Shown one piece after another: positions 14,504 through 18,161 of a DNA stretch of 64,000 nucleotides (positions within the stretch are counted from its first letter, which is position 1; every line of letters starts with the position of its first letter). The position numbers and the translations under genes were made by a program. The DNA comes from Arthrobacter sp. D5-1. Lineage in GTDB: Bacteria > Actinomycetota > Actinomycetes > Actinomycetales > Micrococcaceae. The stretch is from NCBI RefSeq assembly GCF_017357425.1, contig NZ_CP014571.1:496001-560000 (forward strand). Reading direction: 5' to 3'. The notes beneath the pieces were generated by a model. The model was not told the origin of the DNA, did not search any database, and saw nothing but the letters and a program-made list of their open reading frames with translations.

Positions 14504-15175
14504 ATGATTGAACATGTGGCCGAACCCGGTTGGGTCGACGTCGAGCGTTACCTGACTGACGTCGTCGTGCGACCTGATCCTGCCCACCAGCGGGCCCTGG
14601 CGTCCGCCGTCGAAGCCGGCATGCCGGCGATTGAAGTAGCCCCCAACGCCGGCAAGTTGCTCCGGATGCTGGTTCAGATGTCGGGGGCCAGGCGGGTCCT
14701 TGAGATCGGAACCTTGGCAGGTTTCAGCAGTATGTGGATGGCACAGGGACTGCCCGACGACGGGCGGCTGGTGACGTGCGAATTCCTCCAAAAGCACGCG
14801 GACGTGGCACGCACCAACCTTGATGCTGCCGGGGTGGGGCACAAAGTGGACATCCGGGTGGGTGCTGCCCTGGATACCCTTCCCACCCTGGCGGGGCAGG
14901 AATCGTTCGATTTTGTTTTCATCGACGCGGACAAGGAAAACGACTCCCATTACCTCGATTGGGCTATCCGGCTGGGGCGCCCGGGCACGGTCATCGTGGT
15001 GGACAACGTCATCTGGGACGGTGCCATCCTTGAGCCGGAAAGGGACGAGGTCAACGCGCCTGGCATCGTCAGGATGCTGGAGATGATGGGCCAGGATCCG
15101 CGCCTGGACGCCACTGCCATCCAGACGGTGGGCAGCAAGGGCTGGGACGGTTTCGCGATAGCGCGGGTGCGCTAG
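14504..15175 (+). CDS. Class I O-methyltransferase
   Basis: The protein has 223 residues of the caffeoyl-CoA/catechol O-methyltransferase-like family. The SAM motif ARRVLEIGTLAGFSSMWMAQ, the acidic loop VTCEFLQKHADVARTNLDAA, and the metal-binding/catalytic FDFVFIDADKENDSHYLDWA and VVDNVIWDG are present. It should transfer methyl from SAM to a hydroxylated, probably catechol-like acceptor using a divalent metal. The stop overlaps the GTG of the following GNAT gene by one base, so the two are co-translated. Confidence 0.9.
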   Translation: MIEHVAEPGWVDVERYLTDVVVRPDPAHQRALASAVEAGMPAIEVAPNAGKLLRMLVQMSGARRVLEIGTLAGFSSMWMAQGLPDDGRLVTCEFLQKHADVARTNLDAAGVGHKVDIRVGAALDTLPTLAGQESFDFVFIDADKENDSHYLDWAIRLGRPGTVIVVDNVIWDGAILEPERDEVNAPGIVRMLEMMGQDPRLDATAIQTVGSKGWDGFAIARVR

Positions 15176-15675
15176 TGGATTTCACGCTTCGCCCCGCTCT
15201 GGTGGACGACGCCGAAGCGATGGCGCTCATGCATGTCCAGTCGTGGCGCGAAAGCTACGGGCACCTGTTGCCCCCGGTGTTTTTCGAGAAACAGGAAGCG
15301 GCGCTGCCCGACCGCATCCAGCGCTACCGGGACTACATCGCTGCGGGTCACTCCAGGATGCTGGCCCACGATCCCGACGGTCTCCTGGTAGGCATCGGCG
15401 CCGCAGGGCCGGGCAGGGATGAGGACAGTCCCAGCGGGCGGGAGCTTTTTATGCTCTACACCTTGGAACGCGTTCATGGCCGGGGGGTTGGCCAGGCATT
15501 AGTGGATGCCTTGATTGGCGATGGCCCGGCGTACCTCTGGGTCCTGGACCACAACCCGCGCGCCCAGGCCTTCTATCGGCGAAACGGCTTTGTTCCGGAC
15601 GGCAAACGGCAACTGTGCGATCCCTCCTGGTATTCGCTGCCGGAACATCGCATGGTTCGTCCGGGGCTCTACTAA
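15175..15675 (+). CDS. GNAT family N-acetyltransferase
   Basis: The protein has 166 residues. The opening FTLRPALVDDAEAMALMHVQ, the acetyl-CoA-binding loop ERVHGRGVGQALVDALI and the later WVLDHNPRAQAFYRRNGF are typical of GNAT enzymes. The GTG start shares one base with the preceding methyltransferase stop. The substrate is unknown. Confidence 0.9.
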   Translation: MDFTLRPALVDDAEAMALMHVQSWRESYGHLLPPVFFEKQEAALPDRIQRYRDYIAAGHSRMLAHDPDGLLVGIGAAGPGRDEDSPSGRELFMLYTLERVHGRGVGQALVDALIGDGPAYLWVLDHNPRAQAFYRRNGFVPDGKRQLCDPSWYSLPEHRMVRPGLY

Positions 15676-15775
15676 GTTCCCACCGCGCGAGCTGTTCCCA
15701 CGGCACACTCCTGTGGATATGGTGATCACGGGCGGTATCGATGAAGACCGCCCGGTCCGATTCCCGGGAGGAAGC
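15676..15775. promoter_or_regulatory. Candidate control region of the repeat-peptide/JmjC operon
   Basis: The octamer GTTCCCAC occurs as a direct repeat at 15676-15683 and 15694-15701, 18 bp apart. TATGGT at 15718 could be a -10 element. This precedes the DGGA-repeat gene, whose GGGAGGAAGC ribosome site ends just before its ATG. Direct-repeat spacing suggests an activator or repressor site, but no factor can be named. Confidence 0.25.
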
Positions 15776-16048
15776 ATGTCTATTCCAGAGCAGGATCCAA
15801 GCCAGCAGGAAGGCCCCGCTGACGGTGGCGCGGACGGCGTCCCCGGCACGCACGACGGCGGAGCCGATGGTGGTGCCGACGGCGGCGCAGACGGTGGTGC
15901 GGAAGGCCCCGCTGACGGTGGTGCCGACGGCGGCGCGGACGGTGGTGCGGAAGGCCCCGCTGACGGTGGTGCGGACGGCGTCCCCGGCACGCACGACGGC
16001 GGTGCTGACGGTGGTGCCGACGGCGGCGCCGGACAACAGGGCAGCTAG
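15776..16048 (+). CDS. Asp-Gly-Gly-Ala repeat peptide, candidate hydroxylase substrate
   Basis: The peptide has 90 residues, preceded by GGGAGGAAGC. After a short leader-like start (MSIPEQDPSQQ) almost everything is ADGG tetrads, punctuated by EGPA at residues 12, 43 and 59 and by two ADGVPGTHDGG blocks. A 26-residue unit (12-37) recurs at 59-84, visible in the DNA as a 141-bp-spaced duplication. There is no hydrophobic segment, Cys, Lys, Arg, Tyr or Trp, and net charge is strongly negative. Synonymous codons vary (GGT/GGC, GCG/GCC), arguing for selection on the protein. It is 2 bp from the JmjC gene. I faintly recall similar ORFs labelled BatC, which says nothing of function. Confidence 0.75.
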   Translation: MSIPEQDPSQQEGPADGGADGVPGTHDGGADGGADGGADGGAEGPADGGADGGADGGAEGPADGGADGVPGTHDGGADGGADGGAGQQGS

Positions 16049-16050
16049 GT

Positions 16051-17256
16051 TTGAGCTCTACCAGCACTGATTTCCAGGACCCCGGCGCCGTGAAAGGCGG
16101 CGGGGTCCTGGAAACACGCCTGATCGACATCGGCCAGGAGGAATTTGCCAGTGACGTCTGGGGGCGAACCGCCCTGCTGACCCGTGGTGTCAGCGACTTC
16201 TCCGATGTGTTCTCAGCCGGCGCAGTGGACGAACTGGTTTCACGCCGCGGGCTGCGGACGCCTTTCCTGCGCGTCGCCAAGGGCGGCTCCACGCTTCCCG
16301 AGTCCTCCTACACTTCTCCGGCAGGGGTCGGCGCCACCATCTCCGACCAGCTTGATGACACCGCGCTGTGGCGTAAGTTCGCTGATGGTGCCACCCTCGT
16401 GCTGCAGGCGCTGCACCGCACGTGGGAGCCTGTGTCGGGTTTCAGCTCGCAGTTGAGCAGTGAACTCGGACATCCTGTGCAGGCCAACGCCTACATCACC
16501 CCGCCGCAGAACCGTGGCTTCGATGATCACTACGACGTCCACGACGTCTTCGTGCTGCAGATCGAGGGAACCAAGCGCTGGATCATCCATAAGCCGGTCC
16601 ACGTGGACCCGCTGCGAAGCCAGCCTTGGACTGATCGCCGCTCCGCGGTCGAAGAGGCCGCTCAAGGCGCAGCGTACATCGACACGGTCCTCGAGCCGGG
16701 CGATGTCCTGTACCTGCCACGAGGCTGGCTGCACGCCGCCCAGGCACAGGGGAAAGTCTCCATCCATCTGACCTTGGGAATCCACACCTGGACCCGCCAT
16801 GCGTTGGCCGAACATCTGGCACAGGCCGCACTTGCCGCGCTCTGTGACGATCCAGGGATGCGCCGGTCCTTGCCATTGGGCGTCGACGGACCTGAAGAGG
16901 AGATGGCTGCAGTCCGTGAACGTCTCGCGGCCGCTGTCCTTGAAGCCGATACGACGTCCCTTTTCCACCGTGCCCGAAGGGGGCAAGGGCGCCCGGCTCC
17001 CCTTGGTCCGGTGGCCCAACTCGCGGCCATTGACGGCCTCAGGCCAGAGTCGCTGGTTCGTCTTCGGGGGGCCCTGGAAGCACGGTTTGATGGCTCACGC
17101 CTCACCACCCGCGTCGGTTGGCTCGACTTCCCCGAGGAAGATCTGCCGTCCGTGCGGCGCCTGCTGGAGGGCGGGGAATACCCCGCGGCGGACATCGGCC
17201 TGGCACTCGCCGAGAGGTTGTTGCGCGCAGGAGTTCTTGTCCCCGTCGCACAATGA
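16051..17256 (+). CDS. JmjC/cupin_4 domain oxygenase (ROXA/NO66-like)
   Basis: The protein has 401 residues from a TTG 2 bp after the repeat-peptide stop; the start is uncertain. The double-stranded beta-helix carries the Fe(II) facial triad H160-x-D162 in FDDHYDVHDVFVLQIEG, and H228 in DVLYLPRGWLHAAQ. H239 lies in SIHLTLG. This arrangement matches 2-oxoglutarate-dependent protein hydroxylases of the ROXA (YcfD)/MINA/NO66 group, followed by dimerisation and winged-helix-like C-terminal parts. Known relatives hydroxylate Arg or His in ribosomal proteins. Here the adjacent Asp-rich repeat peptide is the obvious candidate substrate. The stop overlaps the next ATG (ATGA). Confidence 0.88.
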   Translation: MSSTSTDFQDPGAVKGGGVLETRLIDIGQEEFASDVWGRTALLTRGVSDFSDVFSAGAVDELVSRRGLRTPFLRVAKGGSTLPESSYTSPAGVGATISDQLDDTALWRKFADGATLVLQALHRTWEPVSGFSSQLSSELGHPVQANAYITPPQNRGFDDHYDVHDVFVLQIEGTKRWIIHKPVHVDPLRSQPWTDRRSAVEEAAQGAAYIDTVLEPGDVLYLPRGWLHAAQAQGKVSIHLTLGIHTWTRHALAEHLAQAALAALCDDPGMRRSLPLGVDGPEEEMAAVRERLAAAVLEADTTSLFHRARRGQGRPAPLGPVAQLAAIDGLRPESLVRLRGALEARFDGSRLTTRVGWLDFPEEDLPSVRRLLEGGEYPAADIGLALAERLLRAGVLVPVAQ

Positions 17257-18161
17257 CGTCCCCGGCAGCCGCAACGGGACGCTTCTTCTGCGCGGAAACT
17301 GCCCAGGCGCGCGGGGACTCGATGGCAGGCACGGCGTCACCCGGCCTCGTCTGGGTCCTCGTGGAGTACCGGGGCGCGTGGCCGCCCGACGGCTTTGACG
17401 CCCTGGATCTCGAGGCGGGGACCAAGGCGCTCGTCGTCTCTGCGGCGCGGACGGCGAATGCGCGGATTCTCCTGGTGCGGCGGCCCGGCCCTCGCCGCCG
17501 CCCGGGTCCGGGCAGATGGGCCGTTCTTCGCCATGAAAGCTCCGGCGCCTATCGACAGCACTGGGGAACGTGGGAGCGGGATGAGGACCTCGCGGGGATA
17601 GCCTCAGCCCTGGCATCTCCCGGAGAGCACGGTTTCCCGCCGGTCATCATGGTTTGCGCCCACGGTCAGCACGACCCCTGCTGCGCAGTATGGGGCCGCC
17701 CCGTGGGACGTGCACTCAGCGAGCGCTGGCCAGAGTTGGTGTGGGAGTGCTCCCATGTTGGCGGTGACAGGTTTGCGGCCAACGTGGTCATCGCCCCGGA
17801 CGGCGTTTATTACGGAGGACTCGACGCCGGGTCCGCCGTGGCCACCGTTGAGGAGCACCTGGCCGCCCGTATCCACGCAGAGCATCTGCGCGGCTATACG
17901 GATCTCTTGCCGCCCCAGCAAGCCGCGGTGGTGGCAGTGCTGGGGCAGTTCGGTCCTGCCGGCCGGCAGGATTTTGTGGTCACTGAGACCTTGCGGGAGG
18001 GCGAGCACTGGCGCATCCGGATTACTGGCCGGCCGCCCCATCCGGCGAAAATCGAGGTGGAATTGCGGGCCAGCCGCGCACCGCAGAGGCAGCTGACCTG
18101 CCGGGCGCCGGCGGGGGGCTCGGTCATCGTCTATGAAACCCTTTCCATCCGCATAAACTGA
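17253..18161 (+). CDS. Sucrase/ferredoxin-like (Suc_Fer) family protein
   Basis: The protein has 302 residues from the ATG overlapping the JmjC stop; the longer upstream frame is out of context. It matches the sucrase/ferredoxin-like family with a thioredoxin-like ferredoxin region: FFCAET near the start, and a Cys-rich VCAHGQHDPCCAVWGRPVG that may bind a 2Fe-2S cluster or act in thiol chemistry. VWECSHVGGDRFAANVVIAP and YYGGLD follow. The C-terminal part is beta-rich. The tight coupling suggests it works with the JmjC enzyme, perhaps as electron donor or for keeping the iron reduced; this is inference. Confidence 0.82.
   Translation: MTSPAAATGRFFCAETAQARGDSMAGTASPGLVWVLVEYRGAWPPDGFDALDLEAGTKALVVSAARTANARILLVRRPGPRRRPGPGRWAVLRHESSGAYRQHWGTWERDEDLAGIASALASPGEHGFPPVIMVCAHGQHDPCCAVWGRPVGRALSERWPELVWECSHVGGDRFAANVVIAPDGVYYGGLDAGSAVATVEEHLAARIHAEHLRGYTDLLPPQQAAVVAVLGQFGPAGRQDFVVTETLREGEHWRIRITGRPPHPAKIEVELRASRAPQRQLTCRAPAGGSVIVYETLSIRIN

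Follow-up and report, generated by a model that had tools for sequence, protein, structure and literature searches.

Three adjoining genes in Arthrobacter sp. D5-1

The window analysed here is a 64,000-nucleotide stretch of the Arthrobacter sp. D5-1 genome. On its + strand lie three closely packed genes, for a peptide of aspartate (Asp) repeats, a JmjC_2 oxygenase and a Suc_Fer-like protein. A gap of 2 bp separates the peptide gene from the JmjC gene, and the JmjC and Suc_Fer genes overlap by 4 bp (ATGA). A first-pass annotation of this DNA had given these coordinates, gene order, gap and overlap, and the sequence confirms them. The unit is made up as follows, where 2OG stands for 2-oxoglutarate, RiPP for ribosomally synthesized and post-translationally modified peptide, and RRE for RiPP recognition element.

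15776..16048, + strand: Asp-repeat precursor peptide, 90 aa; residues 1-12 leader-like, then EGPADGGA / GTHDGGADGGA / ADGG units
16051..17256, + strand: JmjC_2 Fe(II)/2OG oxygenase, 401 aa, TTG start
16456..16800, + strand: JmjC_2 catalytic domain, residues 136-250, including H160, D162, K175 and H228
16984..17253, + strand: C-terminal winged-helix, RRE-like domain (predicted fold), residues 312-401, including R339
17253..18161, + strand: Suc_Fer-like (thioredoxin-like ferredoxin) protein, 302 aa
17655..17768, + strand: putative [2Fe-2S] ligand region C135-X8-C144-X23-H168-x-G-G-D172, from comparison with the Apd1/Aim32 motif

The peptide contains 15 Asp (14 within the repeat part), 2 His, 4 Glu and no Lys or Arg. 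It had been described as 90 residues of ADGG tetrads, which is correct, with about 18 repeated Asp, which is too high. Tandem Repeats Finder (TRF) detects a 12/24-bp array in the gene. Across the 5.1-Mb genome the peptide gene is the sole site of the coding pattern ADGGADGGA, with five forward matches and none to a backwards control. The same genome has one JmjC_2 match and one Suc_Fer match.

Asp-repeat genes stand beside one group of JmjC genes

A JmjC profile was built from 12 genomes, and 80 named loci were taken as the best 80 of at least 497 confirmed. In a phylum-wide survey of 396 Actinomycetota genomes the profile matched in 67, and in 54 of these the JmjC was of the window's group. 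The survey added 70 loci, its four weakest profile matches being left out, for a linkage set of 150. There is some redundancy among them, and a 90% identity limit brings 148 JmjC rows, counting the window's, down to 126. The open reading frame (ORF) directly 5' of each JmjC gene was scored as Asp content multiplied by periodicity, with 4224 positions drawn at random from these loci as the null. The window's JmjC group comprises matches of at least 200 bits (135 loci) and distant JmjC those below 200 bits (15 loci), a cut-off chosen after inspection.

An Asp-repeat ORF above the 99% null level lies directly upstream in 127 of the 135 group loci, and in 112 it exceeds the null maximum. The 15 distant loci show neither an Asp-repeat ORF upstream nor, as far as the fetched stretch reaches, a Suc_Fer match. 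The first-pass annotation had expected repeat ORFs beside the JmjC gene in relatives, as is the case within the group. Eight group loci fall below the level. L041 and L143 are contig ends, and DGHAGPGGDGGADGPAE is visible in L079, which lies close to such an end. The repeats of L113 and L114 are short but true, L068 has a broken frame, and the two Arsenicicoccus loci (L078, L089) are Asp-rich without a clear repeat.

As the converse test, the pattern ADGGADGGA was scanned in 196 genomes of the class. It is present in 39, against 3 for the backwards control. Sixteen genomes have two or more matches, and in 15 of them the pattern is directly upstream of a group JmjC; the exception, G237, carries it within a 456-aa ORF. 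Where there is a single match (23 genomes), this position is occupied in two.

The JmjC gene occurs in 6 of 37 same-genus genomes and 12 of 59 relatives. Because it is so patchy among same-genus genomes, the system is dispensable. A tblastn search of phages gave no match, and a plasmid search gave 117 records, all below 60% identity (28-36% among the 12 matches listed).

Precursors change their repeats and keep their Asp

Start codons were assignable in 130 of the 135 precursors, and 128 of these are distinct. Omitting six whose start is uncertain or whose frame is broken (L068, L092, L137, L140, L142, L159) leaves 122, and the core was defined as the sequence after residue 18. The minimum share over these cores is 11.6% for Asp, the highest of all residues, 6.4% for Ala and 2.4% for Gly. 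His is lacking from 30 cores, Glu from 20, Asn from 89 and Lys from 113.

The DGGA group (95 precursors, at least 400 bits) has Asp as the X of A-X-[GS][GS]-A in 816 of 819 cases. Asp outnumbers Glu by 1263 to 283 in this group; for the 200-400-bit group, counted over 28 precursors, the figures are 561 and 29. Much of the DGGA-group Glu comes from AEGP, a regular spacer. When units with ADGG on both sides are counted (n=276), 137 are ADGG, 42 ADSG and 91 AEGP.

Repeat units are lineage-specific and include ADGG with EGPADGGAAGTPGVHDGGADGGA modules, DGDATDAADGDA, DADGTDADGT, SSDGDATD and STDADAD. Other types listed are DGDAT and DADGT, and all lineages remain Asp-rich. Some JmjC genes stand beside unusual long repeats, either GPTEDDENLDAPGEHSQDTGDE-like (L155, L159) or of GPRDAG/SADGTDQGV, in the form SADGTDQGV..GTYGPRDAG (L129). 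Three precursors beside group JmjC genes (L078, L089, L103) are Asp-rich yet hardly repetitive, with similar C-termini ending GPT.EPGA; they are natural test cases of what the JmjC enzyme requires. An Amycolatopsis repeat peptide is publicly annotated as a BatC protein, a name that looks unsupported.

The N-termini also carry a pattern. An LTDADIET-like motif is found in 27 of 31 precursors of the 200-400-bit group and in 0.23% of shuffled N-termini. Of the four without it, L129 and L134 have near-variants of the motif, and in L142 and L159 the start was wrongly called. At 400 bits and above the motif occurs in 12 of 95, and many others begin PEQDPNQQEGPADGG-like, mostly with shorter N-termini. 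The window precursor belongs with the PEQDPNQQEGPADGG-like starts.

Codons were compared over 315 DGGA-group units with an ADGG before and an Ala after them, the AEGP spacer being omitted. Asp-position codons show 411 synonymous against 44 non-synonymous differences over 1306 unit pairs, and Ala-position codons of the tetrads show 685 against 6. Positions three and four are less constrained (489/253 and 617/133 synonymous/non-synonymous). The synonymous excess at Asp positions indicates that there is selection on the encoded protein of the DGGA repeats. A chance ORF is ruled out by the codon differences together with conservation. The array might instead be a GC-rich DNA or RNA repeat that serves JmjC expression, with no protein made, and it is indeed of low complexity with other reading frames also open. 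This is extremely improbable given the synonymous excess at the tetrad Ala and Asp positions. A ribosome-binding site and start codon also precede the ORF in the listed relatives, and the dissimilar DNA repeats of other lineages still code for Asp-rich peptides.

The JmjC oxygenase

The window protein matches JmjC_2 (PF08007) at E 4.1e-29. H160, D162, H228 and K175 are invariant in the aligned relatives that cover these positions (133 rows, some partial), and the triad and Lys align with the HYD...H motif and Lys of NO66. The lysine corresponding to K175 is the 2OG ligand in JmjC enzymes. An intact Fe(II) triad had been read from the window sequence, and its fixation and NO66 alignment agree with that reading.

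NO66, MINA53 and YcfD are the nearest structures, NO66 being the closest fold. These JmjC_2 (PF08007) enzymes share the fold at no more than 27% identity to the window JmjC in structural alignments. Unlike theirs, the window-type JmjC gene adjoins a variable Asp-repeat peptide gene. With FIH, a JmjC Asn/Asp hydroxylase, only the catalytic core can be aligned (about 195 residues). FIH substrates are folded eukaryotic proteins, and the enzyme acts on Asp of ankyrin repeats. The C-terminal domain of the window JmjC is most like that of its own family (NO66) and then mostly like RiPP precursor-recognition proteins, at moderate scores. Residues Q119, R123, D99, G94 and R339 are group-specific relative to 14 distant JmjC rows, a comparison that does not contain NO66 itself; R339 is kept in 98% of the window's group and 9% of the distant rows.

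The best 120 of 7043 homologues bear the names cupin/JmjC-domain, NO66-like, L16 hydroxylase (L16 Arg81) or hypothetical. For group members the names L16 Arg81 hydroxylase and NO66 look unsupported. The best PHROGs match (2e-23) is to a family of unknown function. In a quick-method tree the DGGA-type enzymes form an 84-row group with 100% support, 77 labelled DGGA and 7 otherwise. Outgroup branches are long, so that deeper joins are unsure, and in the deep group the automatic labelling of repeat types is noisy. L147 and L162, both distant JmjC rows, are placed within repeat-bearing rows, for which long-branch attraction may be the reason.

The Suc_Fer-like protein

The third protein matches Suc_Fer-like (PF06999) at E 1.8e-16. 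A Suc_Fer gene is directly downstream of JmjC in 70 of the 80 named loci. The survey has 55 loci whose JmjC reaches 200 bits, and the stretch fetched for 45 of them contains a Suc_Fer gene, which in L134 is on the opposite strand. Among the 59 relatives, all 12 JmjC-bearing genomes have it directly downstream, and some Suc_Fer match (best E 6e-23) occurs in 6 of the 47 without JmjC. The co-occurrence that the first-pass annotation had suggested testing is the rule in these sets. Suc_Fer is not adjacent to JmjC in Terrabacter, Microlunatus, Motilibacter and Arsenicicoccus loci. Nine loci (L066, L070, L073, L075, L076, L078, L080, L082, L089) have precursor and JmjC without an adjoining Suc_Fer. 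Genomes of this kind have a Suc_Fer gene elsewhere in 4 of 5 tested.

Invariant Suc_Fer residues are C13, C135, C143, C144, H168 and C283. The thioredoxin-like ferredoxins Apd1 and Aim32 belong to the same family and have the same C-X8-C...H-x-G-G spacing in the available parts of two reports (PMC11138216, PMC8482512), the first of which gives the motif as C-X8-C-X24-75-H-X-G-G-H. The window protein departs from this bis-histidinyl motif with C-X8-C-X23-H-x-G-G-D. The unit's Suc_Fer proteins, unlike Apd1/Aim32 as so described, have Asp for the fourth-position His in 98% of 128 covering rows and three more invariant Cys (13, 143, 283). Because Asp replaces the second His, the Suc_Fer of the unit is, as judged from its residues, not assignable as a bis-histidinyl ferredoxin. 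The Asp at this place and the extra invariant Cys leave room for an unusual [2Fe-2S] ligation. A PDB sequence search with Suc_Fer gave no match at E <= 1.

Upstream region and gene neighbourhood

Three further features lie 5' of the peptide gene.

15718..15723, + strand: -10-like hexamer TATGGT with conserved GATCAC directly after, from sequence and Micrococcaceae comparison; putative promoter element
15729..15754, + strand: stem-loop CGGGCGGT...ACCGCCCG (predicted stem), probable 5' mRNA leader
15766..15774, + strand: ribosome-binding site GGGAGGAAG; similar in upstream regions of compared relatives

Of 13 Micrococcaceae upstream regions listed, 12 have the order TANNNT, GATCAC and hairpin before the peptide gene; L020 has GATCTC, and L022 is without the arrangement. 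This arrangement of hexamer, GATCAC and stem-loop suggests that transcription of the unit would start just upstream of the peptide gene. The 54-nt stem-loop stretch is no more stable than shuffles (z -0.87; 34 of 200 shuffles as good), and an Rfam search of the 5' region gave no match near its gathering score. Similar hairpins are also upstream in a few Streptomyces and may be a regulatory or stability element.

Neighbouring genes were compared over 30 diverse loci with flanks of up to 5 kb. The JmjC cluster is present in 30 of 30 and the next same-strand cluster, Suc_Fer by position, in 26. The best cluster outside the unit occurs in 6 at varying positions and all others in at most 5; the recurring ones come mostly from Intrasporangiaceae-type loci (L063/L065/L077/L083/L085). 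No transporter, protease/exporter, peptidase or regulator gene is kept near the unit in this set. O-methyltransferase (PF01596) and GNAT acetyltransferase genes lie immediately 5' of the window unit on the same strand (14504-15675), and neither recurs beside it in other families among the 30 loci.

Proposed function and alternatives

Taken together, the sequences suggest that the three genes probably form a compact RiPP-like system, with the repeat peptide as a dedicated substrate hydroxylated at many Asp by the JmjC enzyme. As is typical of RiPPs, a precursor gene adjoins the gene of its candidate modifying enzyme (127 of 135 loci), and that enzyme has the HxD...H triad and 2OG lysine of a JmjC Fe(II)/2OG oxygenase. 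A dedicated protease or exporter, common in RiPP systems and not required, is missing from the 30 diverse loci. In the proposed pathway, the first gene would make a precursor whose sequence pattern is that of a short recognition part at the N-terminus and, after it, many Asp-bearing repeats. The JmjC enzyme would bind it, probably through the predicted RRE-like winged-helix domain, and move along the repeats, hydroxylating the beta-carbon of many Asp with Fe(II), O2 and 2OG. We infer beta-hydroxylation from the intact triad, the constancy of Asp, which exceeds that of any other residue, and the FIH-type precedent. The most likely role for Suc_Fer, the weakest step, would be to hold the enzyme iron ferrous over many turnovers. 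Since the surroundings of the unit keep neither a transporter nor a protease gene, the product would probably remain in the cytoplasm. Speculatively, it could be an acidic polymer that binds metal or responds to redox state or oxygen.

These parts differ in strength. The first-pass annotation had taken the peptide for a dedicated JmjC partner and likely substrate; the linkage holds, and the chemistry stays a proposal. That the peptide is the JmjC substrate is, on the adjacency, very likely. Asp beta-hydroxylation is the probable reaction. Asp fits best as the target because it has the highest minimum core share and is nearly unexchanged in the DGGA context; Ala or Gly would be less likely. Leader binding by the C-terminal domain, which rests on a predicted fold, is evenly balanced. 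Reduction of the JmjC iron centre by Suc_Fer is a tentative assignment, and a use in metal binding or in cytoplasmic storage or sensing is somewhat more doubtful still.

The resemblance to NO66, MINA53 and YcfD, and the NO66 or L16 Arg81 labels of some homologues, would also suit a ribosomal-protein hydroxylase of the NO66/YcfD type, the repeat peptide being an independent acidic protein that shares the operon. We consider this improbable, as it leaves unexplained a linkage that spans many families and is absent beside distant JmjC (0 of 15). The repeat sequence changes yet an Asp-rich ORF persists, and presence in 6 of 37 same-genus genomes poorly suits an enzyme for a universal ribosomal protein. 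NO66 as closest fold could alternatively mean that the enzyme acts on the peptide and hydroxylates the His of the GxHDGG motif, just as NO66 targets a His of its own substrate. NO66 recognises NHXH, according to the available part of PMC4556315, and H precedes DGGADG 214 times. Gln, however, takes the same place 31 times, and His makes up 0.6% of cores in the 200-400-bit group, so that this reading is very unlikely. As a universal target His is ruled out by the 30 of 122 cores without it.

Suc_Fer could also take part in further chemistry on Asp, or on nearby Gly, Ala or Thr, whose end product might be, for instance, aminomalonate, dehydro-residues or cross-links. In the accessible portion of PMC13097080, SmaX makes aminomalonic acid from the Asp that SmaO has hydroxylated, and the redox partner is retained in most loci. 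No second oxygenase recurs nearby in the 30 diverse loci, however, and adjacent Suc_Fer is missing in several lineages, although most such genomes tested have one elsewhere. A product beyond beta-hydroxy-Asp is therefore unlikely, if slightly less so than the two preceding alternatives.

Relation to known systems and significance

The principle of a precursor paired with an oxygenase that has an RRE-like domain is already known. Biphenomycin-type clusters likewise use a JmjC/cupin oxygenase on a ribosomal-precursor residue. Examples are the JmjC ornithine hydroxylases BipG (PMC12707348) and PbsQ/BpmG (PMC12257519), which act in RiPP pathways. In the parts of these papers available, the target is arginase-made ornithine, and multinuclear non-heme iron oxidase (MNIO), radical S-adenosylmethionine (rSAM) and protease genes lie in the cluster. 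Window-type loci differ from the clusters so described in that MNIO, rSAM, protease and arginase genes are not recurrent and a long Asp repeat forms the core. Asp beta-hydroxylation in ribosomal precursors is also known, from PesHI, which hydroxylates Asp21 of PesA2 (PMC13060819), and SmaO (PMC13097080); these belong to different clusters, and the available text of both reports mentions no tandem Asp repeats for them. The accessible part of PMC12710340 places bacterial JmjC proteins homologous to eukaryotic RRE-JmjC fusions in RiPP-like contexts and names no precursor for them; these proteins may be relatives of the window's JmjC group.

No description of the peptide-JmjC pair was found in the open-access literature searched, as far as its available text extends, and the strings DGGADGG, ADGGADGG and GGADGGAD do not occur in it. 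The peptide-JmjC unit looks like an undescribed RiPP-like family, and a common one, many soil bacteria having a small Asp-repeat gene right next to that of the oxygenase. Two features are new relative to the literature found, an all-Asp repeat as substrate and an architecture of three genes. In the broadest form of our proposal, which we offer tentatively, cytoplasmic poly-(beta-hydroxyaspartyl) repeat polymers would form a class of ribosomal peptides that is undescribed and occurs widely in Actinomycetota. Each would be made by one JmjC with its own leader-binding domain, reduced by a partner ferredoxin, as an encoded polymer that binds metal (iron or calcium) or responds to oxygen or iron. 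If the proposed function is true, a substrate would be assigned to a large orphan oxygenase group, and the unit would be a single-enzyme system for multi-site Asp hydroxylation. The winged helix of ribosomal oxygenases would then be tied to RiPP leader recognition.

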